From: an uncultured Lachnospiraceae bacterium
GTDB taxonomy: Bacteria > Bacillota > Clostridia > Lachnospirales > Lachnospiraceae
DNA length: 62,687 nt
Assembly (NCBI GenBank): GCA_947650005.1
Contig: CANSTU010000011.1
Span: 1-62,687, forward strand
Direction of reading: 5' to 3'
The notes under the pieces are model-generated. The model was not told where the DNA came from. It worked only from the letters and a program-made list of their open reading frames with translations, and did not search any database. Positions 21,140 to 36,390 of this stretch are shown here, one piece after another (the stretch's first letter is position 1; the number at the start of each line of letters is the position of its first letter). Made by a program: the position numbers and the translations under genes.

Positions 21140-21193
21140 CCTTTGCCTATCGGCATACGGCAAACGCGCCATTCATTGCATTTACCGTTTTAT

Positions 21194-21219
21194 CAGGCGG
21201 TTTCGGTCGAAACCGCCTG
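21194..21219. terminator. Bidirectional terminator between NSS transporter and spmB
   Basis: Perfect 11-bp stem CAGGCGGTTTC-GGTC-GAAACCGCCTG between two convergent genes; TATTTTATG follows on the plus strand and ATAAAACGG on the minus. Confidence 0.8.
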
Positions 21220-21261
21220 TATTTTATGTACATTTTTCATTCATATATCCGCTCTGTTCCT

Positions 21262-21795
21262 TCATCCCGCCATAATTTTGGCCAAAAGGATGCTGGCCGC
21301 CACCCCCGCTGTCGTGGCCAAAAGGGCGCCGGTGAGCGTGTATCTGGTTTTAGTCACCTTGGCCGCCATGTAATACACGCTCATCGTGTAAAAACAGGTT
21401 TCCGTACAGCACAATAGAATAGAGGTCATCGTCCCAATCAGGGAGTCCGTCCCATACTTTTTAAATATATCCAATACCAGGCCCGTGGCGGCCGAAGAGG
21501 AAAACAGCTTGACGATGATCACAGGAACCACCGGAGCCGGCAGCCCCAGTGGTTCCGTGAGGATCCCCAGCAGATTCCCCAAAAAGGTTAAGAAACCGGA
21601 GGAACGCAGAACCCCCACAGCCATCATCAGCCCGATCAATGTGGGCATGATATTAATAACCGTTCGAAAGCCATCCTCCGCTCCTTTCACAAAATCCTCA
21701 TACACATTCGTGTGGTGAATGATTCCATATCCTATGATATAGAAAATGAGCGCAGGAATGATGATATTGGATAGGTTCGCAAGGGCATTCGTCAT
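21262..21795 (-). CDS. spmB: Spore maturation protein B
   Basis: A 177-residue membrane protein of the nucleoside-recognition (Gate) family; Bacillus SpmB has 178 residues. Typical features are IIPALIFYIIGYGIIHHTNVYEDFVKGAEDGF, MPTLIGLMMAVGVLRSSG and SSAATGLVLDIFKKYG, and a C-terminal TM helix. SpmA and SpmB act together in spore core dehydration. The ATG at 21795 follows AAGGCGG; an ATG six codons upstream has a poorer site. Its partner spmA, normally immediately upstream, is ~12.9 kb away at 34725-35357 in the same orientation, with the exopolysaccharide block in between. Confidence 0.95.
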   Translation of the reverse strand: MTNALANLSNIIIPALIFYIIGYGIIHHTNVYEDFVKGAEDGFRTVINIMPTLIGLMMAVGVLRSSGFLTFLGNLLGILTEPLGLPAPVVPVIIVKLFSSSAATGLVLDIFKKYGTDSLIGTMTSILLCCTETCFYTMSVYYMAAKVTKTRYTLTGALLATTAGVAASILLAKIMAG

Positions 21796-21813
21796 ATCGG
21801 GCCGCCTTGACAT

Positions 21814-22007
21814 TCCAGATTAAGACATGTATATGTCCTTCCCATTCTGAATATGCAAAATCGGCTCTTTTCAGTTGCCAATCGTCAAAACGGGGAATCC
21901 TTCTTTCTCCCCGCAGGCGTCCGTTTGGGCCCATCCTCCAGAACCTCCATATACATATAATAGACTGAGAAAATACCGGCCAGAGGGGAGCTCTTGCGGC
22001 TTTCCTG
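21814..22007. other. Intergenic left edge of the spmA/spmB insertion
   Basis: About 190 bp without a credible gene, separating spmB from the last exopolysaccharide gene. I see no terminator with a T-run and no direct repeat that pairs with the other edge. Confidence 0.4.
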
Positions 22008-22844
22008 TTATTCCAATACCAGGCTTCTGCCGTCACTGACAAACACCGCATCTCGCCCTCTGGTGCAAATGATCTGCGAATCTGCCGACAGCAGCGCCTT
22101 TTCTATCTGCCCTCCGGGCGCTTCTGCCGTCACGACAGCATATTCTGGGCAAATGGCCTCGATCAGACGCGCTCCTATCTTGAGATTACGCCCATGGTAA
22201 CTTACCTTATATAATTCCACTTGGGGCAAATGATAGGTCAGCAGCTCTTTTATACGTTTCTTCTGGGCATCCCCAGCAAAAAACATCTTCACATCGCCGT
22301 GTTGGGCCAGCACCGCAAGAGAATAATCGTTATCCTGCTCATAATAGGCTTCCTGCGGCGGCCAAATCCTAAGAGACAGCTCTCCATAGTTTAGTTCCCG
22401 GCTCCGCGCCGGCGTCATGATATCGATTCCCAGCGCCTTGGCCTGACCCAAAAGCGCATCATAATCGTCGTTCTGCTGACTATAATAGGGCGCTACGATC
22501 AGTTGTATCGGCATCTGTTCCAGCAGGGCCGGTGCGCCGCCGATATGGTCTTTATCCGGATGGGTAAGGATAAGGCAGTCAATCCGGTTCACACCCGCCT
22601 CCTTTAAAAGGGCAAGAATATGATCCCCATCCTGTTCCTCTCCCGTATCGATCACGGCACAGTAGCCCAGGCTCAACAGGACTGCACAGTCTGCGTCGTC
22701 CTTTGTCCCCGCGAACAAGACGCGGACCTGGTGCTCCGCTTCTTTTCCTTCAAACAGCATCAACAGCCCTGTCAGCGCCGTACACAGTACGCAGATACCT
22801 GTCACACGGATTACCATGCCCATATATCTCTTGACCCTATCCAT
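22008..22844 (-). CDS. Membrane-anchored metallo-beta-lactamase-fold hydrolase (ComEC/Rec2 C-terminal-like)
   Basis: A 278-residue protein with an N-terminal TM helix (MVIRVTGICVLCTALTGLLMLF) and an extracytoplasmic MBL domain. The metal motif is LTHPDKDHIGG (HxxxDH form), followed by MFFAGDAQ and VSYHGRN, as in the detached C-terminal domain of ComEC and related secreted hydrolases. The ATG at 22844 overlaps the end of the GH5 gene by 8 bp and follows GGGAGGG, so it is the last gene of the exopolysaccharide operon. Which bond it hydrolyses (polymer-linked ester, nucleotide or other) is unknown. Confidence 0.85.
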   Translation of the reverse strand: MDRVKRYMGMVIRVTGICVLCTALTGLLMLFEGKEAEHQVRVLFAGTKDDADCAVLLSLGYCAVIDTGEEQDGDHILALLKEAGVNRIDCLILTHPDKDHIGGAPALLEQMPIQLIVAPYYSQQNDDYDALLGQAKALGIDIMTPARSRELNYGELSLRIWPPQEAYYEQDNDYSLAVLAQHGDVKMFFAGDAQKKRIKELLTYHLPQVELYKVSYHGRNLKIGARLIEAICPEYAVVTAEAPGGQIEKALLSADSQIICTRGRDAVFVSDGRSLVLE

Positions 22845-23889
22845 CCGCTAATCCCTCCCGCCCATGTCCTTTGAAATTTCCAAACATCAGCCTGCCGGAC
22901 ACCGTTAAATCTTCTTCCGTCCAGCCGCTTAATTTCCCGCAGTCCGTCCGAAGAGCGCTGTGCCACTCATCCTTGTTGCTTAGCGCCCACCCGGCCCAGC
23001 TGACATTGTGTCCTTCCATATAATCGATAAAGGGCTGTGCACGTTCCGGGTTTACAATATCTGATGAGTCCTCCGCTTCCTCTTCCAGATAGGCTTGTTC
23101 CCCCCAAGACACGCCCCACTCGCTGACAAAAATCGGAATTCCTTGATCCAATAGCGCAGGAAGCTGTCCCGCATCGCCGGTGCCCGGTACAGATATATCG
23201 ATATAGCGATGTAGGGAATATAAAATATTATCAAATTCCAACGGCTGCTCCAACGGCCCTGTGAAGTTGGTACAATAGTCCGGCGTTCCGATAATGATCA
23301 CCGCGTTCGGCGAATTAGCACGAATAACCGGAATAATCTGTCCGGCATATTCCACAATATCGTCCCACGTGGTCTCTCCATTGGGTTCGTTACAGATCTC
23401 ATACAGCACGCCCGGCTCATCAGCATAATGGGCGCTCACTTCCCGAAAAAAGGATTCCGCCTCCTTCGCATACTGATTCGGATTCCCGTCTTCCAGAATA
23501 TGCCAATCCACAATGACGTACAAATCTTGGGACAACGCGCTCTCCATACCCATATAGAGATAATCCAAGCTGCGTTTGGGATCCTCCAGATAAGCCCCTT
23601 TCGGTTCCGTATACACCGCAATGCGGAAAAGATTCGCGCCATATTCGCGCAGTGTCTTCATTGCCCCGCCATTCAGATATTGCGGATACCATGCGATGCC
23701 ATGGCTGCTCATGCCGCGCAGCATCGTAGCCTGTCCCCGCTCATCCACAAGGCCGGTGCCTTCGACATGAAGCTGTCCGTGAAGCGAAACCCCATTGCCG
23801 GCCTCCAAAGGAAGCGTACATCCCAGCAGCTCCAATAAACTGCAAAGCAACAGCGTCGCCCACAGCGCATGATATCGAAGCCGGTTCAT
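22837..23889 (-). CDS. Glycoside hydrolase family 5 endoglucanase lipoprotein (CcsZ-like)
   Basis: A 350-residue lipoprotein: signal sequence LWATLLLCSLLELLGC with lipobox LLGC at residue ~24. The GH5 TIM barrel shows LRGMSSHG near the start, IVDWHIL, the acid/base Glu in YEICNEPNG and the nucleophile Glu in IFVSEWGVS. It should cleave beta-1,4-glucan at the cell surface. Cellulose synthase operons usually include a dedicated cellulase (BcsZ in Gram-negatives, CcsZ in Clostridioides difficile) needed for polymer assembly, which fits its position here. It starts inside the stop of the DHHW gene (4-bp overlap). Confidence 0.93.
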   Translation of the reverse strand: MNRLRYHALWATLLLCSLLELLGCTLPLEAGNGVSLHGQLHVEGTGLVDERGQATMLRGMSSHGIAWYPQYLNGGAMKTLREYGANLFRIAVYTEPKGAYLEDPKRSLDYLYMGMESALSQDLYVIVDWHILEDGNPNQYAKEAESFFREVSAHYADEPGVLYEICNEPNGETTWDDIVEYAGQIIPVIRANSPNAVIIIGTPDYCTNFTGPLEQPLEFDNILYSLHRYIDISVPGTGDAGQLPALLDQGIPIFVSEWGVSWGEQAYLEEEAEDSSDIVNPERAQPFIDYMEGHNVSWAGWALSNKDEWHSALRTDCGKLSGWTEEDLTVSGRLMFGNFKGHGREGLADG

Positions 23890-25193
23890 GGAAGTTCCTC
23901 ACTTTCGCAAAAAGGGAAGAATTCATAACTCAGATTTTCAGGATATAGCATAATGATAACATAATCGTAATCCTTCCGCGCCAAAAGCGATTCCATTGTC
24001 TGGCTGTCATACTGGTTCGTCCACGCCGCCTCCACCTGCGAAACACACTGCGCGAAAAAGGAAATTACAGGGGAAGCATACGAATCTCTCAGGAAAAGGA
24101 CCGACATGCCATCCCCTGTCCTGTTATTATTCCGAATAAAATCATATGGCATAATTTCCTCTAGATAGGTTTTTTCCGCAACGCCGTGGTAAATCTCCTC
24201 CCCTTCTAGCTCCTCCTGCGGCAGCTTCAATAAAGTCGCAGTAAACAGGCCGTCCGATCCCCTCAGATTCTCTAACCCCGCCTGCTGATTCACTGCATCG
24301 GCATTCTCCAGTAATTCCAAACGGCTGAGCGCCCCCACATCCTCTACCCTCTTAAGATCGCCGCGAATCCAATTATAGTTCCCCTCGTCCTTGGGAATCA
24401 GGATCGTATAATCCTCCATTCCCTCCGCATAGTCCACCCCCGTGTTTCTTCCCTGCGAACCTAACATGATCCTTTCGTAAGTCCGAATCGTATAATTATC
24501 CAAATCACGATAGAAATTTTCCGGATCGAAATCTGTCCCAAAGGTTCCATTGAGCCATTCTATCATATCGCAGAAACCCGCAAAGGCTGCCCGCGGCGTC
24601 CAGTGATGGTCCGTCTTAAAAAAAGCCTCCCCATAAGACAAACCATGTGCCTTGAACGATTGCCGCAAATCCAGGCACGGGACGCCATAGTAACGTAACC
24701 AGCGCAGCATCTCGTCTCCCTGTCCGGTAAAATCATTATAAGGAATTCCCTCATATCGCATTTCCTCCCCCGCCACCTTCATAGGGGGCATAATAAAACA
24801 GACCTGTGTGCCACGTGCCACCAGTAAATCGTGCAAACGGCGTACCCTTACCGCCAGTTCTTTGCTCTCATCGTGAAAACCCACCCAAAAGTTTCCGCTG
24901 TGAAGATATCCAGCCTTGTCCTTCACGCTTTCAAAACTGTTGATCTCATGTTTTCCCTGGGCAAGCTGGATCCTTCCATAGCATTCTATAAACGGATATC
25001 GCCATAACATCCTTTCCACGACAGCATTGTCCACAGCGGCAATGATATCGCCAATGCTCCCCGGCCGCGCCTCCGCCATCGCTTCCATCACTGCCCCTCC
25101 TGAATGAAAGAAATTTCCCATTGAATATCCCAATAGGAAAACAACCGCAAGAACTGTAAAAGCTGTTTTTCCAAATCGCTCCGCCAGATCCAT
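23886..25193 (-). CDS. DHHW-family AlgX/AlgJ-like exopolysaccharide acetylation protein
   Basis: A 435-residue protein with an N-terminal TM anchor (AFTVLAVVFLLGYSMGNFF) and an extracytoplasmic SGNH-like domain. The family motif KTDHHWTPRAAF and the serine-bearing VLFLRDSYASPVI block are evident. AlgJ/AlgX proteins accept acetyl groups delivered by a membrane MBOAT and place them on polymer; the MBOAT gene lies 19 bp upstream. It matches the WssI/CcsI role in acetylated-cellulose clusters. The ATG at 25193 follows AAGGAGGCGG; an upstream extension of the frame overlaps the MBOAT gene. Confidence 0.88.
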   Translation of the reverse strand: MDLAERFGKTAFTVLAVVFLLGYSMGNFFHSGGAVMEAMAEARPGSIGDIIAAVDNAVVERMLWRYPFIECYGRIQLAQGKHEINSFESVKDKAGYLHSGNFWVGFHDESKELAVRVRRLHDLLVARGTQVCFIMPPMKVAGEEMRYEGIPYNDFTGQGDEMLRWLRYYGVPCLDLRQSFKAHGLSYGEAFFKTDHHWTPRAAFAGFCDMIEWLNGTFGTDFDPENFYRDLDNYTIRTYERIMLGSQGRNTGVDYAEGMEDYTILIPKDEGNYNWIRGDLKRVEDVGALSRLELLENADAVNQQAGLENLRGSDGLFTATLLKLPQEELEGEEIYHGVAEKTYLEEIMPYDFIRNNNRTGDGMSVLFLRDSYASPVISFFAQCVSQVEAAWTNQYDSQTMESLLARKDYDYVIIMLYPENLSYEFFPFCESEELP

Positions 25194-25212
25194 GATGTCC
25201 GCCTCCTTATCT

Positions 25213-26649
25213 TTAGAAATGAAAATAAATAAAGGGATTGTATCCGCTTCGCGCCAGATAGCAGACACATACGAACAAAAGCCCGCACATTGCCGCAGGA
25301 TAGAGCCCTCCCGCCACAACAGCCGCCAGACACGGATGTGCCATTTTCAGCCGGTTCTTGATCCATTGGGCTACAGGCAGACAGCCCAGAATTCCCGCAA
25401 TCCAGATAAGCGCATACTCCCGCAGGAACATCCAGGCGGTCTCGCAGAAGAGACCGTTTCGATTAAGCAGAAACATATTGCCCAAATACTCCAAAAACTG
25501 GTAATAGCTTTCGCACCGAAACAAAACCCAGCCAAAGTTCACTACAAGCAGCGTATATATGTGTTTGATGCAAGACGGTCCCTTCCACTTTTCAAGCAGA
25601 AATATGCGTTCCAGCAGAATACATACAAAATGAAACAGCCCCCACATTACGAAAGTCCACGAGGCCCCATGCCAAATCCCGGTCAAAAGCCATACGATCA
25701 ACAGATTCCGTACCATCTTATCCCTATTGTCCACCTTAGAGCCTCCCAAGGGAAAATAGACGTATTCACGAAACCAGGCTGACAGGGAAATATGCCATCT
25801 CCGCCAAAACTCGCTCACGGAACAGGAAATATAAGGATAGATAAAATTTTCCTCATAAGTAAAACCAAAAATCTTTCCAAGCCCGATCGCCATATCTGAG
25901 TAACCGGAAAAATCAAAGAATATCTGCAACGTATAGGCAAAGGATCCTATCCAGGCCAATGCCGCCGAAACGGTAAGCGCTTCATGCCCTGCTTCGGTCA
26001 ATCCATACACATTGTCAGCTACCACCGCAAAAGTATTGGCCAAGAGCAGCTTCTTGGCAAGGCCCAGTATAAAACGGTTGAGCCCTTCCGAAAACATCCT
26101 CCAAGTATGCCGACGCTGTGTCATCTGCTTTTCAACCGTGCTGTACCGGACAATCGGCCCTGCCACAAGCTGTGGAAACATGCAAATATAAAGAGCCACA
26201 TAAAGAGGGTTTCTCTGGGCCGCCGCTTTCCCGCGGTATACGTCGATTACATAGCTCATCGCCTGAAAGGTATAAAAGGAAATCCCGATCGGAAGTGCAA
26301 TTTCCGTTTGCGCTATCGTAAAAAAGCCAAACAGGCCCCCTATGCCTGAAACAATAAAATTGGAATATTTAAAGACGAACAAAATGCCCAGGTCCATCGT
26401 ACAGGCAAGAAAAAGCAGTCCCTTGCCCGTCATAGGCCTGCTGCTGATGCCGATGGCAAGAAGCCAGTTAATAACGCATACCGCCAGAAGCCAAATAACG
26501 TTTTGGGGCTCTCCCCAGGCATAGAAGAACAGGCTGGCTATAAACAACAGTATGTTCCTCATATGAATGCTGGGCGCACAGGCCGTATAATAGAGAATCA
26601 GCACAACCGGGAAAAAATAAAATAGAAATTCCACACTGGAAAAAACCAC
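25213..26649 (-). CDS. MBOAT-family O-acyltransferase (AlgI/WssH-like)
   Basis: A 478-residue polytopic enzyme that moves acetyl groups across the membrane for exopolysaccharide O-acetylation. The start MVFSSVEFLFYFFPVVLILYY is diagnostic of AlgI/DltB-type MBOATs, as are RNILLFIASLFFYAWGEP, LPIGISFYTFQAMSYVID, FDFSGYSDMAIGLGKIFGF and the catalytic His in GIWHGASWTFVMWGL. It lies 21 bp after the glycosyltransferase gene and 19 bp before the DHHW partner, so the trio should be co-translated from one mRNA. Confidence 0.95.
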   Translation of the reverse strand: MVFSSVEFLFYFFPVVLILYYTACAPSIHMRNILLFIASLFFYAWGEPQNVIWLLAVCVINWLLAIGISSRPMTGKGLLFLACTMDLGILFVFKYSNFIVSGIGGLFGFFTIAQTEIALPIGISFYTFQAMSYVIDVYRGKAAAQRNPLYVALYICMFPQLVAGPIVRYSTVEKQMTQRRHTWRMFSEGLNRFILGLAKKLLLANTFAVVADNVYGLTEAGHEALTVSAALAWIGSFAYTLQIFFDFSGYSDMAIGLGKIFGFTYEENFIYPYISCSVSEFWRRWHISLSAWFREYVYFPLGGSKVDNRDKMVRNLLIVWLLTGIWHGASWTFVMWGLFHFVCILLERIFLLEKWKGPSCIKHIYTLLVVNFGWVLFRCESYYQFLEYLGNMFLLNRNGLFCETAWMFLREYALIWIAGILGCLPVAQWIKNRLKMAHPCLAAVVAGGLYPAAMCGLLFVCVCYLARSGYNPFIYFHF

Positions 26650-26670
26650 GGCAGAAACCTCCCCCTTATA

Positions 26671-28926
26671 CTATACAGACGCAAACAGTTCATCATACGC
26701 ACCGCAAAAAAGCAGTTCTTCCATATTGTCCACATGATACAGCCCTTCCTTTTGTCCGGCTTTAGAACAGCACATAATTCCATTTGGCAAAACAATCTTA
26801 AGTTTCTGTCTGAGGCCGCATCCCTCTTCGCCGGACAGGATCACAAACTCATAGTTACAGTCTACCATCCGCACATGGCCTTCTTCTGTCAAAGGAAATA
26901 CCCGATCGATCGCCACTCTGGGCAGTCTGCGTCGCGATTCTGTACTGCGTTCAGTACGTTTATGAATATTCAGGAATACATCGTCAAAAATACTGACCGA
27001 TTTGCTCATCTTTTTCGCCAAACCGTGATCCCGGTCATATAAAATCTGATAATACGTATCCTTCTCCCTGCCGGAAAGCTCATCCAACTGAATGCCATAC
27101 TTCCATCCATTCTCCTGTTTAACGACGTGTACGGCATGACCTTTGACCGTTGTTTCATATCCGTCCGCTTTCAGATGCACAGCGACCTCCCCGACCCCGT
27201 CCGGAGCGTAGATCGCCTTACCGGATAAGAAGGAAAGCCCGCTCTCAGAAAGATCCTGTGTCACACCATAGTACTTCTTATCTTTGTAAGTAACCTTCAC
27301 AGGGATTTTGACAAAAAACCGATCGTTGGTCCGCATATTTTTTCGTCCCGCCATAAAGAAGATAGCCATAACCAGATTCAGCCCATTGACGGCCAGCCAA
27401 TAGATAAGAATGACAGCTCCCAAATTCTGATCCCGAAGCGCCGTGGCTACCGCAACCATGAGGGCATACAAATCCACAACCAACAAAAAAAGGTGGGGAA
27501 TCGCAAATTGCAAGTCCGATTTCTTTTCCACCGTCCTGGACTTATCGGTAACATGAAATTCTGTCTCCTTGAGTAGCAGTGTCTCCATCAACATCGGCAA
27601 TATCATATATGGAAAGATCGTGGTATCCACAATATTGCTCCATCTTTGGCTCCTAATACCTCCGGAAGCAACCTTTAAGACATGATTATATAACAAATAG
27701 GATGGCAGCCAGATGAACAGGATCTCCCGAAGGCCGCAAACCACTACTGGAATATCGAATGCGACAAATAAAATGGGAGCTACAATATAAATAAAGCGCC
27801 TCAAAAATGTCCACCAATAAGTCCAGCATGCCAGATAACTTAATTTACCCCCAATCGGAATACCCTTATTAAATAGCAGATTCACCCGCCGCAGCGAAGC
27901 GATACAGCCACGCCCCCACCGCACTCTCTGCTTCAACAAATTATCGATATCCGTGGGCGCCAGACCATGGGCCAAAACTTTATCCAATGCATAACAGGTA
28001 TAACCCTTTGCCTGAATCTTGATTCCCGTCTCAAAGTCCTCTGTGATCGTGCCCGTTGAAATGCCTCCCGCCGCCTCCAAGGCTTCCCTGGAAATTAAGG
28101 TGTTGGAACCGGCATAGATACATGCATTGCTGTTATTGCGTCCAACGTTAACTTCCCGAAAAAAGAAATCCTGTTCGTTTGGAATCCTGTTTTCACTGAA
28201 GAAATTAAATTGAAACAGATCCGGATTATAGAAGCTCTGCGGTGTCTGAATAAATCCCATCTTAAATGTTTCATCTATCTCATCTTCATCGCGTTCTGCC
28301 CAAAGCCCGTTATCCGACTGCTTTAGGCGCGGCAGGAACATATAAGGGACTGTTTCCATCAAAAATTCCCTCGTGGGAATCATGTCCGCATCAAATGTAA
28401 CAATATAAGGGGAACTCGTTTTGCTCAAAGCATTATTTAGGTTTCCGGCCTTCGCATGCTTATTCTCAGGCAGTCCCAGGTAACCCACTCCCATTCTCTC
28501 GGCCAGTCCGGCAACTGCCGGACGGTTCCCATCGTCGCAAAGATAGATATGGATCTTGTTTTGATCCGTGTATCTCATATGCCGGCAGCCATTGACGGTT
28601 TTGTAGAGCAGCTCCACATCCTCATTATGAGTGGCAATGAATACATCGATATGGGGATACCATCCAATCGGGATAACCGGTTTATCCGGTACGCTCTTCT
28701 TCCGGCTGCTAAAAAAATGCCCAATCCCTTCCAGCATGGAAATCGCTTCGGCCGACAGCAGAATGATGCCGCAGATCGCGGCAAGCCAACCATACACGGC
28801 ATGATTCGGGATCGTGCAAAATCCACGCCATAGGATATAGATCGTCATACTGATCGCCGCAAGCCATATCCAGATCACTTCCCTCTTTCCTTTATAATTC
28901 TGTTTCTTTATTTTGATCCTACCCAT
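26671..28926 (-). CDS. Cellulose synthase-like family-2 glycosyltransferase with C-terminal PilZ domain (BcsA/CcsA-like)
   Basis: A 751-residue processive membrane glycosyltransferase. N-terminal TM helices precede the GT-A domain, which has every processive GT2 motif: YLCDDGNRP, TFDADMIP (DxD), TITEDFETG (TED) and KQRVRWGRG (QxxRW). Further TM helices are followed by a PilZ domain with RTNDR (RxxxR) and DLSESGLSF (DxSxxG), the residues that bind cyclic di-GMP in BcsA. A further ~100 residues follow. The product is probably cellulose or a related beta-glucan, made when c-di-GMP is high. The ATG at 28926 follows AGGAGAGG. No BcsB equivalent is present, as expected for a Gram-positive. Confidence 0.94.
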   Translation of the reverse strand: MGRIKIKKQNYKGKREVIWIWLAAISMTIYILWRGFCTIPNHAVYGWLAAICGIILLSAEAISMLEGIGHFFSSRKKSVPDKPVIPIGWYPHIDVFIATHNEDVELLYKTVNGCRHMRYTDQNKIHIYLCDDGNRPAVAGLAERMGVGYLGLPENKHAKAGNLNNALSKTSSPYIVTFDADMIPTREFLMETVPYMFLPRLKQSDNGLWAERDEDEIDETFKMGFIQTPQSFYNPDLFQFNFFSENRIPNEQDFFFREVNVGRNNSNACIYAGSNTLISREALEAAGGISTGTITEDFETGIKIQAKGYTCYALDKVLAHGLAPTDIDNLLKQRVRWGRGCIASLRRVNLLFNKGIPIGGKLSYLACWTYWWTFLRRFIYIVAPILFVAFDIPVVVCGLREILFIWLPSYLLYNHVLKVASGGIRSQRWSNIVDTTIFPYMILPMLMETLLLKETEFHVTDKSRTVEKKSDLQFAIPHLFLLVVDLYALMVAVATALRDQNLGAVILIYWLAVNGLNLVMAIFFMAGRKNMRTNDRFFVKIPVKVTYKDKKYYGVTQDLSESGLSFLSGKAIYAPDGVGEVAVHLKADGYETTVKGHAVHVVKQENGWKYGIQLDELSGREKDTYYQILYDRDHGLAKKMSKSVSIFDDVFLNIHKRTERSTESRRRLPRVAIDRVFPLTEEGHVRMVDCNYEFVILSGEEGCGLRQKLKIVLPNGIMCCSKAGQKEGLYHVDNMEELLFCGAYDELFASV

Positions 28927-28956
28927 AATACTGCCTCTCCTGCCCATACATAAGCC

Positions 28957-30567
28957 TTACATTTTTCTTGCTCGCTGCACTAGAACAATGGATACAAAAA
29001 ATCCCAGCAGAAATAGGGCTGCCAGAACATTCCGCCCTGCATGATCCGCCACAATATAATCCCGGTCATTCAAATGTTCGTCCAGGTAATGAGCATGGAG
29101 AATCAGTGCGTCCTGCATCCTGGTTAACTCATCTTCATAGCTCTGACGATTGCGGTCGATGAATAACTTTGTACTTTCTTCCTGCAAAACGCTTAAATTG
29201 TGACTATAATCATGCCAACGCTGCCGGTCCCGCTCCACTGCCTTGCCAAGGAATCTGCTTGACTCACTTAAGATCCGTAACATATTCTCATCTGAAAGAA
29301 TCCCTTCCCGTAGTCGAACATATCGATCCCATAGTCTGTTTCTAAAAACAGCATCCTCGCAGAGCCTGTCATAATACGGTCTGTAATACATCGGTATATA
29401 TTCAAAATTTGCCATACTGTTTCCTGCATTATCAACGCCACCGTCGAAGTCCCAGTATGGCCCCATCGTTAGCTTCCCACCCGTATCTTTATACATATAT
29501 GTAGAGTGAACCCCCGCATCATAACTCATCATAAACTCATTTATGATGAAATAATTTACAAAGGAATCCACATCAATATAGGAAACATATTGGCGAAAGG
29601 CATTCGGATTATCCGAATAAATAATACGCTCCGCCAAACTAATATCATCGCTTATATATGCAAGTGTTTCCGTCGTCACCTTCTTTTCCTTCGGATAGAT
29701 CAAACTTAGCTGTACATGGGTCGCAATATTCCGGCTCCATTGCTCTGCCATTCCCATCTCATCCGCATAAGTAAAGATTCGCACTTCCGATTCATCAACC
29801 CGGTCTCTCCTCACCACATACGGGCCGGAAACCCTGTCCGGATTATATCCTTGCAATTCAATGCGCCCTTCTCCTTTATCAATCGCCTCAATCAGCAAAT
29901 AGAGGCCCTCATACCGATATCCTCCTTCTGTTTTCATAAGCACCTCACAGAAGCGGACTTCCGGAGAATAGGCATCCATCATATGTCCCAGATTATAGCC
30001 TAAATAATTTCTGAGATAAGAGCTATCCCGAAGACTGCCATTTAATACCCACTCTGCTGCTTTATCCAAACCAAGCAGTGGGAAATCTGCCTTGTTTCCG
30101 TCTTCATCCAATAATTGCAGCCTGTATTGGCTCTTCGGCAGGGCTGAAGAACTGTTCCCCCGTATCTTAATCCTGCCCTGGCTGGCAATCGTTGCCGGGT
30201 CTGCAGGCGTATTCACATGATTCTTATTATCGACCACCTTCACGGTAACATCTGTGTACGGATCGATACCGTCCTGATAACGAAAAGAATCCGTCTGCGC
30301 ATCGTAGTACTTATAATTCACAATCTCCTGTCCATGCGGATCCAATATGACCAGCGGCAGATGTGAGGTAAAGTCCTCCTCTACCATATAATCTTTCGGA
30401 ATCGTATCCATACCGATTGCCGGGTCAGCATCCGCAGCAATCTCATGATGAAATAAATACCGTTCTTCCTCAGAATCATTCCAATACTGTCCGGCTCCAT
30501 ATATGAGACAAACGGGCGCAGCAAGCGCGAGTACCAAAATGGCTGCCCGCCCTGGGTTATCAATCAT
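28957..30567 (-). CDS. CotH kinase-family protein with two membrane anchors
   Basis: A 536-residue protein with TM helices at both ends (RAAILVLALAAPVCLIYGA; NVLAALFLLGFFVSIVLV), leaving the middle outside the cell. The CotH domain is shown by IKIRGNSSSALPKSQYRL (glycine-rich/Lys part), GLYLLIEAIDKG, and MGPYWDFDGGVDN, whose Asp-bearing DFD-like motif corresponds to the atypical protein-kinase active site. CotH proteins phosphorylate surface proteins in Bacillus spores; the substrate here is unknown. Its place between DUF4956 and the synthase suggests a role in polymer synthesis, anchoring or control. The ATG at 30567 follows AGGAGCAAAG. Confidence 0.9.
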   Translation of the reverse strand: MIDNPGRAAILVLALAAPVCLIYGAGQYWNDSEEERYLFHHEIAADADPAIGMDTIPKDYMVEEDFTSHLPLVILDPHGQEIVNYKYYDAQTDSFRYQDGIDPYTDVTVKVVDNKNHVNTPADPATIASQGRIKIRGNSSSALPKSQYRLQLLDEDGNKADFPLLGLDKAAEWVLNGSLRDSSYLRNYLGYNLGHMMDAYSPEVRFCEVLMKTEGGYRYEGLYLLIEAIDKGEGRIELQGYNPDRVSGPYVVRRDRVDESEVRIFTYADEMGMAEQWSRNIATHVQLSLIYPKEKKVTTETLAYISDDISLAERIIYSDNPNAFRQYVSYIDVDSFVNYFIINEFMMSYDAGVHSTYMYKDTGGKLTMGPYWDFDGGVDNAGNSMANFEYIPMYYRPYYDRLCEDAVFRNRLWDRYVRLREGILSDENMLRILSESSRFLGKAVERDRQRWHDYSHNLSVLQEESTKLFIDRNRQSYEDELTRMQDALILHAHYLDEHLNDRDYIVADHAGRNVLAALFLLGFFVSIVLVQRARKM

Positions 30568-30571
30568 CTTT

Positions 30572-30645
30572 GCTCCTATCTGCCCGCTTTAACGGGCGCT
30601 CCAATCAGAAGGTTGAAACGATGTTTCAATCTTACTCCCATGTCT
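30572..30645. repeat. Dispersed two-hairpin repeat, copy in EPS operon gap
   Basis: GCTCCTATCT, hairpin GCCCGC-tttaa-CGGGC, CTCCAATCAG, hairpin GTTGAAAC-ga-TGTTTCAAT, then CTTACTCCCATGTC. It lies in the 117-bp gap between DUF4956 and CotH genes. Shares both hairpins and flanks with the copies at 9479 and 36420. Confidence 0.65.
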
Positions 30646-30684
30646 TTCCCTTACCCTGTACGCTTCCAAACCACTCTGCCCTAT

Positions 30685-31362
30685 CTATGCTGTTATCTCA
30701 TCATTTTGGGCCACCACATTTACTTCGCTGACATTATCAATGCTTAAGAGCAGATCCGTGATGTCGGCGGCATCCGTATATTTGCGAAGCGTCTGCTGGG
30801 ATAATTCATAGATATATTCTACATATTCTTTCGTTGTGTTTTGGGCCCGCAGGCGCTCCTTACCCTGATAAGCATTCTGTATCGACTGTTCTATTTTCTC
30901 TCCTGCGCCAAACCGTGCACGTATAATCAATAAATAGCGCGAGTTGTTCTGCGAATTACTGATGAACAGCATGAGAAGGAAAATAACCACACTTCCGATT
31001 GCTGCAATCACAAAATCAGATATGCCACAGCAGATCCCCACCGCAATACACCAGAAAATATATGCCGTATCCCGCGTATCCTTGATCGCTGTCCGAAATC
31101 TGACAATAGACAAGGCGCCTACCATGCCAAGGGAAAGCGCGATATTATTTCCAATGACGCACATCACCATTGTCGTTATAGCCGTCAGCATCCATAGAGA
31201 GGCATTAAACTTGGCGCTGTACACGGCGCCCGCATGGGAAAAACGATAAGATAAAAAAATAATAAATCCCAGAACAACGGCCATTAAAAAACTGATAAGG
31301 ATTTCCTCAATCGACAGACTCCCCGCGTGATTGGCAATATAGTATATAAAGTCCTGATTCAT
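30685..31362 (-). CDS. DUF4956 membrane protein
   Basis: A 225-residue protein with at least three to four N-terminal TM segments (IEEILISFLMAVVLGFIIFL; LWMLTAITTMVMCVIGN; FVIAAIGSVVIFLLMLFI) and a cytoplasmic C-terminal domain of ~90 residues. The GMVGALSIVRFRTAIKDTRDTAYIFW block is the DUF4956 hallmark, similar to the MgtC-like GAGTI-type core. Its start overlaps the stop of the VTC-domain gene by 4 bp (ATGA), so the two are translationally coupled. DUF4956, VTC and CotH genes recur together in other bacteria. The biochemical role is unknown. Confidence 0.85.
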   Translation of the reverse strand: MNQDFIYYIANHAGSLSIEEILISFLMAVVLGFIIFLSYRFSHAGAVYSAKFNASLWMLTAITTMVMCVIGNNIALSLGMVGALSIVRFRTAIKDTRDTAYIFWCIAVGICCGISDFVIAAIGSVVIFLLMLFISNSQNNSRYLLIIRARFGAGEKIEQSIQNAYQGKERLRAQNTTKEYVEYIYELSQQTLRKYTDAADITDLLLSIDNVSEVNVVAQNDEITA

Positions 31363-32132
31363 GATAAGCCTCCCAATCCATACTTACGTGCAGCAACATA
31401 TTTGCTGGATGCTGTCTGCATACCCGCATAGGATACAATCACATCCTTAATGTAGCTGAGCAGGAAATGATCATACTTAACCTCCAATGTTACAAGATCT
31501 GGCGGGTAAATCGGATACAAGGGTATCTTTTCTTGAAACAGCTCAAAGCATCCCTCATGGGACTGTATATTGCTATCCAGCGTAATTCGAATGTTATTGG
31601 TAGCGTTTATAAACGCCGCTCTGTTATACTGCACGATACATTTGGGGCGGTATAGCCATCCGCTCATCACCGTATAGAATTCCTCTGCGATCGGTTCCGG
31701 ATAATTCCGCAGACAGGCGTAATCCCCCTGAATCAGCGCCTTGGCATCCTGTCTGTCAATCGTAAGGCTGCGTTTTCGCTGAACGCTTCCCTGTTTCTGT
31801 TTCCATTCTAATTTTGCGGACTGCGCCCTGCCTCCATATACGCGCAGACGTATCTTCTTGTGGCATAGAAGGCCTGCCTCCTTTTCAAAATAATCCTGAT
31901 CCGAAATAGAATCAAAATAGAGGGATCGCACGATATACCCGCTGCCGCCGCGCATATGCTCATCCTCCTGCAGCACAGTGCGCAGGCGTGCCGCCAACGC
32001 CCGCGCAGCCACATAACTTAGCGGATACTTTTCTTCCGTACGCAGCACATCACAAATTCCTGTCGTCTTTCCCTCTCCAGTACCATACGCTGCTTTCACA
32101 GATTTTCTTTCTCCCTTCCATCTTGCAGGCAT
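31359..32132 (-). CDS. VTC-domain (polyphosphate polymerase-like, CYTH/TTM-fold) protein
   Basis: About 257 residues. The triphosphate-tunnel fold is seen in RTEEKYPLS, GYIVRSLYFDS, KKIRLRVYGG, AKLEWKQKQG(S)VQRKRSL, KCIVQYNRAAF, RITLDSNIQS and VTLEVKYDHFL, with alternating charged residues lining the tunnel. VTC4 domains make polyphosphate from ATP; whether this copy is catalytic is unknown. It is the first gene of the exopolysaccharide operon. The start is uncertain: ATG 32132 or GTG 32099 (after AAGGGAGA). A longer open frame to 32273 runs through recombination site A into the invertible segment, so that part is not expected to be coding. Confidence 0.85.
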   Translation of the reverse strand: MPARWKGERKSVKAAYGTGEGKTTGICDVLRTEEKYPLSYVAARALAARLRTVLQEDEHMRGGSGYIVRSLYFDSISDQDYFEKEAGLLCHKKIRLRVYGGRAQSAKLEWKQKQGSVQRKRSLTIDRQDAKALIQGDYACLRNYPEPIAEEFYTVMSGWLYRPKCIVQYNRAAFINATNNIRITLDSNIQSHEGCFELFQEKIPLYPIYPPDLVTLEVKYDHFLLSYIKDVIVSYAGMQTASSKYVAARKYGLGGLS

Positions 32133-32194
32133 GTATCGTTCTGCCCGACTCAGTTTCCTTTTTGTTTTTCCTAAAAACGCATATTCTGTACAGC

Positions 32195-32220
32195 ATTCGT
32201 CAAAGTACGCTTTGGCGAAC
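32195..32220. promoter_or_regulatory. Inversion site A (26-bp serine-recombinase crossover-like site)
   Basis: Half-sites ATTCGTCAAAGT and, on the other strand, GTTCGCCAAAGC flank the 2-bp core AC (32207-32208). Both fit RTYCGYCAAAGY, as do the two half-sites of site B. The layout of 12 + 2 + 12 is that of Hin/Gin-type sites. Read inverted, sites A and B agree at 22 of 26 positions and have the same core. Confidence 0.75.
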
Positions 32221-32364
32221 GTCGAATTCTGAAATGACACGGGAAAATAACTCAGAAAAATGAATTGACACAATCGTAGAATATCTATATACTAGAAACA
32301 GCTCAAGGGAAATTCAGAAATGGTTTTATAGCATTTCCCCTTATGTAAAACGGTTCGTCAAAGT
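32209..32364. other. Proposed invertible promoter segment (OFF orientation in this assembly)
   Basis: About 157 bp bounded by sites A and B, containing one near-consensus promoter (32265-32293) facing plus, away from the operon whose first gene begins at 32132. Inversion would move the promoter start to about 32273 on the minus strand, ~140 nt upstream of the VTC gene. It contains no gene. A weak minus-strand TTGAGC-17-TATTCT pair inside it could allow some OFF-state expression. Confidence 0.72.
32265..32293 (+). promoter_or_regulatory. Sigma-A promoter inside the invertible segment
   Basis: TTGACA (32265-32270), 17-bp spacer, TATACT (32288-32293): 11 of 12 consensus positions. In the present orientation it reads toward the recombinase 3' end. 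Confidence 0.8.
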
Positions 32365-32384
32365 GTACTTTGGCGGATTTTTAT
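32300..32384 (+). ncRNA. Predicted short OFF-state transcript
   Basis: From the promoter at 32265-32293 to the hairpin/T-tract at 32354-32382. It would fold as AAGGGAAAT (from 32305) pairing with ATTTCCCCTT, then the site-B hairpin. It may be only a by-product of the OFF orientation. Confidence 0.4.
32353..32378. promoter_or_regulatory. Inversion site B, also an intrinsic terminator in plus direction
   Basis: Half-sites GTTCGTCAAAGT and, on the other strand, ATCCGCCAAAGT flank the core GT (32365-32366), the complement of site A's AC. GATTTTTATTT follows outside the segment, so plus-strand RNA from the inner promoter should stop here before entering the recombinase gene antisense. Confidence 0.75.
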
Positions 32385-32987
32385 TTATAACCCCATCTTT
32401 TTCACATGTTGATAGAAATAAGTCCGCCCTACATTCAGTTCTTTTAGCGCTTCGGAAAGTCCGATCTCCTGACGTCTCCATTTTCCAGCAACCTTCTCAA
32501 ATGACTCCGGTACCGGCCGCCCTGGATTTCCGAAATGCACGCCCCGTTCCTTCGCTGCCGCAATGCCTTCTGCCTGGCGTTTTCTGATGTTTTCTCGCTC
32601 ATTCTGCGCCACATACGACAGAATCTGTAATACCAGATCTGACACAAAAGTTCCGATTAAGTCCTTATCTTTATTTCTGGTATCCAAAAGCGGCATGTCC
32701 AACACCACAATGTCAATCTTTTTCTCTTTGGTAAGAATACGCCATTGTTCCAAAATCTCTTCATAATTTCGCCCCAGCCGGTCAATGGACTGAATAATCA
32801 AAACATCTTTCTTCCTCATTCTTTTCACCAGCTTTTGGTATTCCTTCCGGTTAAAATCTTTTCCGCTCTGCTTGTCCATATAGATGTTTTTTTCCAAAAC
32901 CGGAAAATTTTCCAAGGCAATCTTCTGTCTTGTCTCATTCTGTTCCCGCGTAGATACACGAATATATCCATAAACTGTCTTTTCCAT
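32385..32987 (-). CDS. Small serine recombinase (resolvase/invertase family)
   Basis: A 200-residue recombinase of the size of Hin, Gin and Tn3-type resolvases. The nucleophile Ser lies in YGYIRVSTREQNE, IQSIDRLGRNYEEI carries the catalytic Arg motif, and QNERENIRKRQAEGIAAAKERG is the dimer/E-helix region; the last ~45 residues (PGRPVPESFEKVAGKWRRQ ... VGRTYFYQHVKK) are a HTH. The ATG at 32987 follows AAAGGAG. Its 3' end almost touches inversion site B, and a perfect 17-bp palindrome lies at its promoter. No transposase, tnpR-associated transposon ends or phage genes adjoin it, which favours a local DNA-inversion role. Confidence 0.93.
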   Translation of the reverse strand: MEKTVYGYIRVSTREQNETRQKIALENFPVLEKNIYMDKQSGKDFNRKEYQKLVKRMRKKDVLIIQSIDRLGRNYEEILEQWRILTKEKKIDIVVLDMPLLDTRNKDKDLIGTFVSDLVLQILSYVAQNERENIRKRQAEGIAAAKERGVHFGNPGRPVPESFEKVAGKWRRQEIGLSEALKELNVGRTYFYQHVKKMGL

Positions 32988-33001
32988 GTTTTTACTCCTT
33001 T

Positions 33002-33018
33002 TTGATATAATATATCAA
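33002..33018. promoter_or_regulatory. 17-bp perfect palindrome upstream of the recombinase
   Basis: TTGATATA-a-TATATCAA, ending a few bases before the AAAGGAG ribosome-binding site and containing -10-like TATATT. Likely an operator for autoregulation. The rest of 33019-33152 has no gene; a GGCAGG...CCTGCC hairpin lies near 33101-33130. Confidence 0.6.
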
Positions 33019-33152
33019 GTTTTCATTTATTTACGCGAAGAAGCCTCAATGGACAAGGGGATACACGCCAAGAATATGCACTCCATGCAAAACCAAAAGG
33101 CAGGCGCACCGTTTACCGGTCCATCCTGCCATACTTCCCAAGCCAGATATTT

Positions 33153-33179
33153 AAAAAACGGAGAGCTGCATGCTCTCCG
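33153..33179 (-). terminator. Rho-independent terminator of asparaginase
   Basis: On the minus strand CGGAGAGC-atgca-GCTCTCCG followed by TTTTTT. Confidence 0.9.
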
Positions 33180-33240
33180 CCTTCACTCCTTTCCCCTGCC
33201 GTCTATCGTCTCCTTACGAGGGAAGAGATTATATTGTTTT

Positions 33241-34242
33241 TCAAAAGACAGACAGAATATCGCAGGAAATCGGTGTATAAAACAGTTTAGCCACCTCTGC
33301 CCGTTCAGTAGTCCGTCCCAAAATCCACATTAATTTTGCGATTACCGCTTCGGTTATCATGTCGTAAGCTTCCAGTATCGGCAGATTCTGCTTGATACTG
33401 TTGCCAACATGATAAACGGACAAATCGCTGCCCTCATTTTCCACCTGTGTAGTCAAAACTACTGTCTTGCCGGCTTCCAATCCCCTTTTTATCGTCTCGT
33501 AAAAGTTTCCTGTTTCATAGACCGGCAATCCGCCTACGCCAAAACTCTCAATGATCAATGCGCTGTTACGTTCCAAAAGATATTCCGCGACTCCGCAGTC
33601 AATTCCCGGCGCCAGCTTTAGCAAGGCCACTTTAGGATCCAGTACCTCATAAAATTGGGTTGATATGTTTCTCTCCGGCCTGATATATTGAATGATCCGG
33701 CCATCCTGCGCCATTCCTATAATTGGATAATTTATACTGGAAAAAGCTTCGAAACTCTTACTATGGGTCTTTCTGGATCTAGTTCCTGCGATGATCTTAC
33801 CGTTAAAAACCAGCAGCACACCGTACATATCAGATGCGGCCACCATAAAAGCGTCCCGAAGATTCTGCTTGCTGTCCGTCGTTTCATACCCGATCGGCTT
33901 CTGGGCTCCTGTAAGCACAATTGGCTTAAGGCTGTTCTGAATCAGATAGCTAAGACCTGCAGCGGTATATGCCATCGTATCCGTACCATGACTTACCACG
34001 AATCCATCATATTGTGTATAGCGTTCCTGTATCGCTTTTGCAATGCGCAGCCAATGTTCCGGACGGATATTCGTACTGTCCAAACTAAAAAGCTGTATAC
34101 AATCTATCTCACAGATTCCTGAGATATCAGGAACGTATCGTAATAACTGCCTGCTTGTCAGCTCTGGCTCCAGTCCATTATTCCCCATCTCTGAGGCAAT
34201 TGTGCCTCCCGTGCCAATAAGAAGGATCCGTCTCTTTTCCAT
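33241..34242 (-). CDS. L-asparaginase (type I, cytosolic)
   Basis: Hydrolyses L-asparagine to aspartate and ammonia. The two Thr active-site motifs are present: LIGTGGTIAS near residue 12 and VVSHGTDTMAYTA near residue 86, with the Lys-containing KPIVLTGAQKP. The length, 333 residues, and the absence of a signal peptide fit a cytosolic AnsA-type enzyme. It stands alone with its own terminator, between spmA and the recombinase, and so forms the right part of the block separating spmA from spmB. The start at 34242 reads MEKRRILLIG, with AAGG rather far upstream. Confidence 0.95.
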   Translation of the reverse strand: MEKRRILLIGTGGTIASEMGNNGLEPELTSRQLLRYVPDISGICEIDCIQLFSLDSTNIRPEHWLRIAKAIQERYTQYDGFVVSHGTDTMAYTAAGLSYLIQNSLKPIVLTGAQKPIGYETTDSKQNLRDAFMVAASDMYGVLLVFNGKIIAGTRSRKTHSKSFEAFSSINYPIIGMAQDGRIIQYIRPERNISTQFYEVLDPKVALLKLAPGIDCGVAEYLLERNSALIIESFGVGGLPVYETGNFYETIKRGLEAGKTVVLTTQVENEGSDLSVYHVGNSIKQNLPILEAYDMITEAVIAKLMWILGRTTERAEVAKLFYTPISCDILSVF

Positions 34243-34724
34243 TTTCGAATGATACCTTTCTTTATCCCTACGTATGTTTCATTGTGCTTCATTGTGACGT
34301 ACCCCGAAATGGCATATATCCGGAATCATCCTCTCAGACTGTTTTATCCTAAATCCTTTGTATTTGGGGGTATAATCTATGTTTATGCCTTGTTCAGTTT
34401 ATCTGAAAGCAGCTAAATTGGGAGAGATTAATATTTCTTATTATACCATTTCTCTTCATCTTTTACTAGGAATGTTCTTTTAGCTATAGAAAGAAAATAT
34501 TTTTAAATCTCTACTAGGCTACTTCGATAAAAAAGATTACTGCCATGGGCTGTTCCGATGATTTCTCTATAATTTCATGACTTTCTGAAAAGCAGATACT
34601 GATGTTCCATATATCCCGGCTAATCCATCATCCTGTTTTTTTCTATATCATTACTTTGTGACTCAGCCGTATCTTTTTACGAACAGGCCCTTCTTCCTTT
34701 TTAACATAATAAAAGCAGGCAGCC
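34243..34724. other. 482-bp AT-rich intergenic region, right edge of the spmA/spmB insertion
   Basis: No credible gene, tRNA, transposon end or terminator with a clear T-run. TATAAT (in GGGGGTATAATC, ~34369-34380) faces plus but lacks a -35 at the correct distance. It is more AT-rich than its flanks. Confidence 0.4.
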
Positions 34725-35357
34725 TCACGCTCTCCGCCTTCTATCCTTCATCTTACAATACACCACAGCCACCGCCGTACTCACAAACGTCGCCACAATC
34801 GCCGGAGCAATGATCCCAGCCGGATTCACGCTGCCGTACTGCTGCCGGTACGCAATCATATTCACCGGTATCAACTGTAGAGAAGAGATATTCAATATTA
34901 GAAACGTACACATCTCATTGCTCGCAACCCGTTCTCGTTTTCCCCCTGTCCCCTTACTATCGCCTAAATAAGCCGGATTCCCCCGCTCCACCTCCAGTTT
35001 CGCCAGTTCCTCCATGGCCTTTAAGCCGGCCGGCGTACACGCCCAGCCAAGGCCCAGGACATTGGCAATAATATTGGTAGAAATATACTCTATTGCCGGA
35101 TGATCCCTTGGCACCCTGGGAAAAAGAAAAGCCACAAACGGCCGGATCCCCTTTGTCATTGCCGCAATCAGCCCTGACTTATGTGCAATCTCCATCAATC
35201 CCACCCAGACGGCCATTACGCCGATCATTGTAATGCAAAGCTGTACTGCCTCTCCTGCCGCATCCAGTGCGCCGTTTGCCACCGCCTCGATGTTTCCGGT
35301 GAAAGCTCCATAAATCACCCCAATGGCGATCATTGCCGCCCATATCATATTTAACAT
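34725..35357 (-). CDS. spmA: Spore maturation protein A
   Basis: A 210-residue membrane protein of the nucleoside-recognition/Gate family, partner of SpmB in spore core dehydration. Diagnostic segments are MLNMIWAAMIAIGVIYGAFTGN, ITMIGVMAVWVGLMEIAHKSGL, ANVLGLGWACTPAGLKAMEEL and FLILNISSLQLIPVNMIAYR; a TM helix and a basic tail DRRRRA end it. The ATG at 35357 follows GATAGGGGAAC. The spmB gene, normally the next gene, lies at 21262-21795. The 3' end shares a 13-bp word (GCTCTCCGCCTTC on the plus strand) with the asparaginase terminator region. Confidence 0.95.
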   Translation of the reverse strand: MLNMIWAAMIAIGVIYGAFTGNIEAVANGALDAAGEAVQLCITMIGVMAVWVGLMEIAHKSGLIAAMTKGIRPFVAFLFPRVPRDHPAIEYISTNIIANVLGLGWACTPAGLKAMEELAKLEVERGNPAYLGDSKGTGGKRERVASNEMCTFLILNISSLQLIPVNMIAYRQQYGSVNPAGIIAPAIVATFVSTAVAVVYCKMKDRRRRA

Positions 35358-35624
35358 CTGTTCCCCTATCCCGCCGTTTCCGACGCATTTTCTTTCCTAA
35401 CTAAATTTATTCCCTACTTGCTCTAATAAGAACTTTGGCCCTAGCCGTCTTGAAACAACCAAACGAGCCTAAACCGTCACTCCGATTTTCCGTACAATCT
35501 CAATTAGCTTATCAGGGCAACCGGATATCAACCGTTGCTTCACATACCTAGAATGTCCTCTCAAGACTGAACGCGTAAAGCAACAGTCTAAATGGCTTTC
35601 ATCTAATTACCCATTTTCTAAGCC
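35358..35624. other. Divergent intergenic region between spmA and tetR
   Basis: No gene is visible between the two divergent starts. I did not find a convincing spmA promoter; sporulation sigma factors would be expected and are hard to recognise by eye. Confidence 0.3.
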
Positions 35625-35653
35625 TTGACAAAAAGTGATACGTGTGATATTTT
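35625..35653 (+). promoter_or_regulatory. Promoter of the TetR gene
   Basis: TTGACA (35625-35630), 17-bp spacer, TATTTT (35648-35653). Confidence 0.65.
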
Positions 35654-35656
35654 ATA

Positions 35657-35671
35657 CATACCATTGGTATG
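35657..35671. promoter_or_regulatory. TetR operator palindrome
   Basis: CATACCA-t-TGGTATG, a perfect dyad at the expected transcription start. A related CATACC...GGTATT element precedes the MFS gene (36626-36644), so the regulator probably controls both. Confidence 0.7.
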
Positions 35672-35733
35672 AATCAAATCACCCAATAAACAAACATACT
35701 CCGTCCAGCCGATACGGCAGAATGCGAGGAACT

Positions 35734-36390
35734 ATGGCAAGGAATAAGCATCCGGAGGAAACCGTCAATCTGATCCTGGACGTATCCTTTCGTCTTTTCC
35801 TGGAAAAAGGATATGAACATACTTCCATCCAGAACATCATCGATCATTTGGGGGGGCTAAGCAAAGGGGCGATCTACCACCATTTCGCTTCCAAAGAAGA
35901 TATCCTGATAGCGGTGATCGACAAAATCACGGCCGATTCCAACCAACTTCTGGCCGATATACGGGACCGAGCGGATCTTACCGGCAAAGAGAAGCTCAAA
36001 GCCATCTTTAAGGCATCCATCGTGCGGCCCGTACAGGATGAGTTGTTTACCGTTGCTCCGGATCTGGGGAACAACCCGAGGTTTCTTTCCTGCATCTTTC
36101 TTGATACCATTAACGAAGTGGCGCCGAATTATATCCTGCCGATCATCCACCAGGGGCAGGAAGATGGGACCATTACCACCGATTATCCTGCAGAATTGTC
36201 TGAACTGATTATCCTGGCGGCAAATATTTGGATGAATCCCATGATTTTCCATAATTCTGCACAGGAATCCTACAATAAATTCAGAGTATTCGATCAGATG
36301 ATGAAAGGCTTTGGCCTCGATATCATGGATCAGGAAATGTTGGACCGTCTCTACCAGCTCGCCCAGATCTATGAGAAGCATCAGGACTGA
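35734..36390 (+). CDS. TetR/AcrR-family transcriptional regulator
   Basis: A 218-residue repressor. The N-terminal helix-turn-helix is standard: LILDVSFRLFLEKGYEHTSIQNIIDHLGGLSKGAIYHHFASKEDIL-type wording spans residues ~12-55. The all-helical ligand domain follows. I chose the ATG at 35734 (MARNKHPEET), which follows GAGGAAC; upstream codons belong to the operator leader. It probably represses itself and the MFS pump 290 bp downstream and senses that pump's substrate. Confidence 0.93.
   Translation: MARNKHPEETVNLILDVSFRLFLEKGYEHTSIQNIIDHLGGLSKGAIYHHFASKEDILIAVIDKITADSNQLLADIRDRADLTGKEKLKAIFKASIVRPVQDELFTVAPDLGNNPRFLSCIFLDTINEVAPNYILPIIHQGQEDGTITTDYPAELSELIILAANIWMNPMIFHNSAQESYNKFRVFDQMMKGFGLDIMDQEMLDRLYQLAQIYEKHQD

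Follow-up and report, generated by a model that had tools for sequence, protein, structure and literature searches.

A small serine recombinase gene ends beside a pair of short inverted dyads which lie upstream of a gene set for a cellulose-like exopolysaccharide. This arrangement raises the question of whether the DNA between the dyads is a promoter segment that the neighbouring recombinase turns around, and whether the same arrangement recurs among relatives of the enzyme. The window is the whole stretch of 62,687 nt and all plain coordinates refer to it. Overall, the locus was judged very probably to be a self-contained invertible-promoter cassette, a reading which draws on the sequence of the window and on its comparison with related loci.

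Sites, promoter and recombinase at the locus

The coordinates of the two 26-bp dyads named in the initial annotation were verified on the sequence, and all four half-sites fitted the motif that it had given (Table 1). The cores were also as described, AC in site A and GT in site B, which are reverse complements and therefore of inverted polarity. The length between the sites had been given as 157 bp and was corrected to 132 bp, and the start-to-start distance from site A to site B was 158 bp, equal to 15 helical turns. The recombinase gene does have its 3' end beyond site B, with 6 bp between its stop codon and the site. The site pair of the window produced a score of 58 compared to a maximum of 39 across 20 dinucleotide shuffles. 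In the assembly (3.59 Mb, 138 contigs, 97.7% complete), sites A and B were the only exact matches to the motif; the search was by exact matching, and a control pattern read backwards gave one match.

Table 1. Features of the putative switch and of the operon that it precedes, in window coordinates.
Feature	Position	Strand	Description
Site A, operon-proximal	32195-32220		ATTCGTCAAAGT-AC-GCTTTGGCGAAC; 12-bp half-sites, 2-bp core; homologous sites in L063-L066
Site B, recombinase-proximal	32353-32378		GTTCGTCAAAGT-GT-ACTTTGGCGGAT; core GT on plus strand
Invertible segment, predicted	32221-32352		132 bp; corresponding segment inverted in relatives
Sigma-A-type promoter, OFF	32265-32293	+	TTGACA-17-TATACT, 11/12; same promoter type in L063-L066 segments
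Terminator-like hairpin	32352-32390	+	Site B then TTTTATTTATAA; faces transcription from the OFF-oriented promoter
Small serine recombinase, 200 aa, presumed local invertase	32385-32987	-	Pfam Resolvase 1.8e-29; PHROG DNA invertase 3.3e-52
VTC-domain protein, first operon gene	31359-32132	-	Pfam 2.2e-32; start may be GTG near 32048
DUF4956 protein	30685-31362	-	Pfam
CotH-family protein	28957-30567	-	Pfam
Cellulose-synthase-like GT2 with PilZ domain	26671-28947	-	Pfam, BcsA relatives
MBOAT O-acyltransferase	25213-26649	-	Pfam
AlgX-like SGNH protein (DHHW in the initial annotation)	23886-25319	-	Pfam
GH5 cellulase-like hydrolase	22837-23889	-	Pfam
Metallo-beta-lactamase-fold (MBL) protein, last of the set	22008-22844	-	Pfam

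The promoter reported between the sites was present on the plus strand, facing away from the operon, which is the OFF orientation. The scan of positions 31900-33300 found two promoter-like sites compared to 2.2 in shuffled sequences, and a single match is thus not significant when taken alone. A weak promoter had also been suggested on the minus strand; its best match reached 8 of 12 positions, under the scan threshold, and the suggestion was not borne out. Terminator-like matches in the region of the window numbered two compared to 1.3 in shuffles, likewise a weak signal alone.

The recombinase ORF is intact. Residues R10, S12, R70, R73 and E130, which we take to be catalytic, were invariant in 30 aligned recombinases including that of the window. 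The closest solved relatives by sequence were the Sin and gamma-delta resolvases and the best match among solved structures was 2r0q. With regard to a C-terminal helix-turn-helix behind the catalytic domain, the gamma-delta alignment spanned residues 5-195, but Pfam detected the N-terminal domain only. The resolvase catalytic domain and the conserved residues place the enzyme among the small serine recombinases, and the two inverted dyads with 2-bp cores are of the DNA-invertase type. Membership in the Mpi family (NF009949) was rejected with a score of 55.4 against a curated cutoff of 272 bits.

According to the proposed mechanism, dimers of the recombinase would bind the two dyads and bring them into contact, with the 15 helical turns between them forming a short loop. 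Cleavage at the 2-bp cores and rejoining would then invert the 132-bp segment; because the cores have opposite polarity, inversion would be favoured and deletion disfavoured. As sequenced, the promoter points toward the recombinase gene at its 3' end. Transcription from it would probably stop at the hairpin and T-tract of site B, so that the operon would be OFF. After inversion, the same promoter would drive the genes from VTC to MBL, and their expression would lead to a cellulose-like, possibly O-acetylated polysaccharide. Binding of the sites by the recombinase, activity of the terminator and ON/OFF expression at the window are all predictions from the DNA sequence.

Site pairs and inverted segments in related loci

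Relatives of the recombinase were confirmed in species genomes at least 421 times, of which the best 80 were kept. Going by the named organisms among the closest of them, the host probably belongs to the Lachnospiraceae. The homologue pool, to which viral contigs contributed 11 relatives, comprised 260 non-identical sequences with at least 50% identity, and 237 of them had at least 300 nt after the stop codon; removal of two stretches whose masked N matched each other left 235. With a score of 46 or more as threshold, 127 of the 235 homologues had a site pair 3' of the recombinase and the other 108 had none. The corresponding figures were 9 of 940 for shuffled stretches and 1 of 156 for upstream controls. 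When the window and 73 loci with enough room were scored individually, 48 of the 74 sequences exceeded the best of their 20 shuffles. Of the phage records, 193 of 195 had less than 60% identity, and so did every one of the 5000 plasmid records retained from at least that many.

Each of the four closest relatives among the matches listed (L063-L066, 74-85% identity) had, immediately behind its recombinase gene, a homologous site pair whose cores were AC and GT. The promoter between the sites pointed toward the recombinase in three of them (L063, L064 and L065), whereas that of L066 pointed outward. The fifth closest among the matches listed (L067, 71%) had no recognisable pair by eye or by shuffle scoring. 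Within the genus of the window, G011 scored 59, above the threshold; sub-threshold scores were produced by G007 (43), the two copies of G002 (37 and 34) and the second copy in the genome of the window (29). This second recombinase (L143; G000:C57:23892-24470) has 64% identity and no detectable site pair. The same genome also contains a recombinase remnant with stop codons (L144; G000:C31:25844-26095).

Segments were compared among the 111 pairs with GT, AC, AT or TA cores at an E-value of 1e-6, which gave 3 locus pairs in reversed and 17 in direct orientation. The clearest record of the exchange point was L271/L279, with recombinase DNA 95% identical and outer flanks 95% and 99% identical: the segment matched with 97% identity when reversed and 58% when direct, and the inner half-sites had swapped places exactly at the 2-bp AT core. 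For L122/L125, recombinase DNA was 98% identical and 79 of 111 bp matched in reverse at 90%, and the downstream DNA differed. The L206/L320 segment showed 72% identity reversed compared to 49% direct. A self-match of L183 was rejected as an inversion, being a single segment between two recombinases; at this locus, two facing recombinases of the same family flank one invertible segment.

The comparative evidence of these loci thus points to 12-2-12 exchange in the enzyme family of the window recombinase, and we infer flipping at the window locus itself. The site pairs of L063-L066 together with the inversions between relatives support the original reading of a serine-invertase-type invertible promoter, in the OFF orientation, before a cellulose-like exopolysaccharide operon.

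Site spacing, site-B hairpin and rival readings

Apart from some outliers, the site-to-site distances clustered near 115, 126, 137, 147, 157 and 168 bp. When one value was taken for each of 63 clusters at 80% recombinase identity, phasing had an R of 0.55 at 10.5 bp with a best period of 10.6, a strength that was matched in none of 200,000 simulations from the smoothed distribution. Coarser clustering gave similar results, with an R of 0.58 (p 1e-5) for 31 clusters at 75% identity and 0.54 (p 0.004) for 18 clusters at 70%. Phasing was weaker for 18 pairs with other cores outside the 111-pair set, two masked-N pairs among them (R 0.43); 19 weaker pairs with scores of 40-45 gave an R of 0.45, and phasing was absent in low-scoring, mostly chance pairs (n = 78, R 0.07). 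For recombinases at least 75% identical, 370 of the 376 length differences of at least 5 bp fell within 8-13, 18-23, 28-33, 37-41 or 49-53 bp, a count in which the pairs are not independent and the bands were set post hoc and span rather over half of the lengths. From the spacing of sites by whole turns, we infer synapsis over a short loop that would need the two sites to lie on the same side of the helix. No paper on helical phasing of invertible-promoter sites was found in the open-access literature searched, which does not establish its absence from print. As a rule, such spacing makes a testable prediction of how a small serine recombinase could pair its sites without a remote enhancer and, in addition, helps in the detection of such switches from sequence only.

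The two sites of a pair also differed from each other. Across the 111 pairs, the mean folding energy was -6.2 kcal/mol for the recombinase-proximal site compared to -3.9 kcal/mol for the distal site, and T-rich DNA (at least 5 T in 8) lay on the recombinase side of 42 proximal sites compared to 9 distal sites. Both asymmetries held per cluster (p about 1e-4 for folding and about 1e-5 for T-richness). Terminator-like sites numbered 38 of 111 proximal and 9 of 111 distal. The proximal site was terminator-like in 15 of the 38 promoters scored OFF, and the feature is therefore not general. At the window, the site-B hairpin would halt transcription from the OFF-oriented promoter before an antisense run into the recombinase gene. 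By the rule chosen for promoter orientation and with L183 excluded (109 loci), 37 promoters were OFF, 6 were ON and 66 were unclear. These figures may reflect a prevailing OFF state, or merely the majority form that an assembly records.

These orientation counts bear on a different reading, in which the window carries a locked or decayed switch that descends from an active inverton, with its promoter fixed OFF and the operon transcribed either by read-through out of the recombinase gene or from a promoter that escaped detection. The excess of OFF over ON agrees with it, the window locus is known in the OFF orientation alone, and read-through is possible since recombinase and operon are co-directional. 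However, the recombinase ORF is intact and the catalytic residues are kept, both sites are intact with their spacing in phase and the promoter is near consensus, all of which leave a locked switch improbable.

Lower still stands the proposal that the dyads are subsites of a res-type resolvase system for deletion or dimer resolution, with the promoter incidental. The Sin and gamma-delta resolvases as closest solved relatives would suit such a system, but the inverted core polarity, the promoter inside the segment and the inverted segments between related loci speak against it and make it most unlikely. Equally hard to credit is that the dyads serve as transcriptional operators or terminators only, beside a recombinase that adjoins them by coincidence: site B does resemble an intrinsic terminator, yet pairs sit behind the recombinase gene in 127 of the 235 homologues, and between relatives a segment is found inverted, its half-sites exchanged at the core.

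The preferred reading of an invertible promoter can be extended beyond the window with less assurance. Local serine invertases with an adjoining invertible promoter appear common in Clostridia. That they form a widespread Clostridial promoter-switch class, with enhancer-independent short-loop synapsis, length changes mainly by whole turns (11 to 16) and a recombinase-side site kept as a terminator that would stop the OFF-oriented promoter from reading into the recombinase gene, is put forward tentatively, at slightly less than even chances.

Known systems, the operon and genes behind related switches

Switches in which a local invertase turns a promoter around are already known, and the window locus is a variant of them. 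The hix sites are 26-bp inverted dyads with 12-bp half-sites around a 2-bp core, as at the window. The Hin invertible segment is about 1 kb, whereas that of the window is far shorter at 132 bp and has the recombinase gene outside it. RecV of C. difficile is a tyrosine recombinase, a type other than the serine recombinase of the window. Its switches resemble the window in being invertible promoters in Clostridia. The Hin/Gin invertases (PMC3798978) are likewise small serine recombinases that invert promoters and use hix sites with a Fis enhancer, whereas the model for the window assumes no enhancer; the window family is also unlike Hin/Gin in its helically phased site spacing. Bacteroides Mpi is similar as a serine recombinase which inverts polysaccharide promoters in gut bacteria, and is the master enzyme for 13 regions (PMC4747536), whereas by exact matching the window motif has two sites in the assembly, not many. 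Finally, an inverton survey associates its main group in Clostridia with a tyrosine recombinase (PMC11892184).

All eight genes of the set VTC-DUF4956-CotH-synthase-MBOAT-DHHW-GH5-MBL, as originally listed, were confirmed by Pfam domains. For the operon start at 32132, the gene stood but the ATG at this position lacks a good ribosome-binding site. The VTC gene may instead start at the GTG near 32048, which is preceded by AGGA; the homologue in L334 starts near the same place as read by eye. The GTG start would lengthen the leader. No match was produced by Rfam at gathering thresholds in 21000-36000, and the leader therefore contains no described riboswitch.

The product of the operon is predicted to be a cellulose-like, possibly O-acetylated polysaccharide. 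The synthase scored 352.4 against a cutoff of 699.1 bits for UDP-forming cellulose synthase (TIGR03030) and is cellulose-synthase-like only, which leaves the nature of the polymer uncertain. It might be a mixed-linkage glucan, because a Gram-positive GT2 is known to make one (PMC10374906). The operon resembles Clostridial ccsZABHI (PMC7710045) in having a PilZ-bearing GT2 synthase, MBOAT, DHHW/AlgX-type and GH5 proteins together, and differs in its additional VTC, DUF4956, CotH and MBL genes. Equivalents of CcsA, CcsZ (GH5), CcsH (MBOAT) and CcsI (DHHW) were present by domain, not by orthology. No CBM11-like CcsB was found among the eight operon proteins (Pfam, E 0.001), and the operon was therefore not classed as Ccs.

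The same eight genes in the same order were found in L334, where the retrieved sequence contained neither a recombinase nor a site pair; the switch thus looks like an add-on to the operon. Upstream of 20 synthase and 3 VTC homologues, several with less than 900 nt of upstream sequence, no switch of this class was accepted. Two of them, L348 and L350, scored above 46 and were rejected because the matches come from GC-core repeats and from CRISPR-like direct repeats. In L350, CRISPR-like direct repeats and, separately, a 15-bp inverted repeat whose copies start 127 bp from each other lie upstream of the synthase homologue, at 1-200 and about 1020-1170.

Downstream of the switches of relatives, the longest open frame was co-directional with the recombinase in 57 of the 69 loci that had 900 nt of downstream sequence. 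A scan of 39 downstream proteins matched 55 families. Among the matches listed, the TnpB-like TNB domain occurred in 4 proteins, AMP-binding enzymes in 3, and LRR_5, cohesin, Eco57I methylase, CpsB/CapC and epimerase in 2 each; glycosyltransferases, SLH, GGDEF and MBOAT were also listed. The genes behind such switches, which include polysaccharide, capsule, cohesin, S-layer, restriction and TnpB-like ones, suggest phase variation of surface and defence functions, which is little studied in these bacteria.

Divergent TnpB/Cas12f-like proteins were encoded directly behind similar invertible promoter elements in L118 (10791-12245), L124 (10804-12117) and L132 (10840-12150); the element of L124 had weak promoter matches only. 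In these proteins, a lysine aligned with the RuvC-III aspartate, and the GIxLG motif had S or A at the position where D is expected. Given these substitutions, the three proteins look nuclease-dead and may be RNA-guided regulators.
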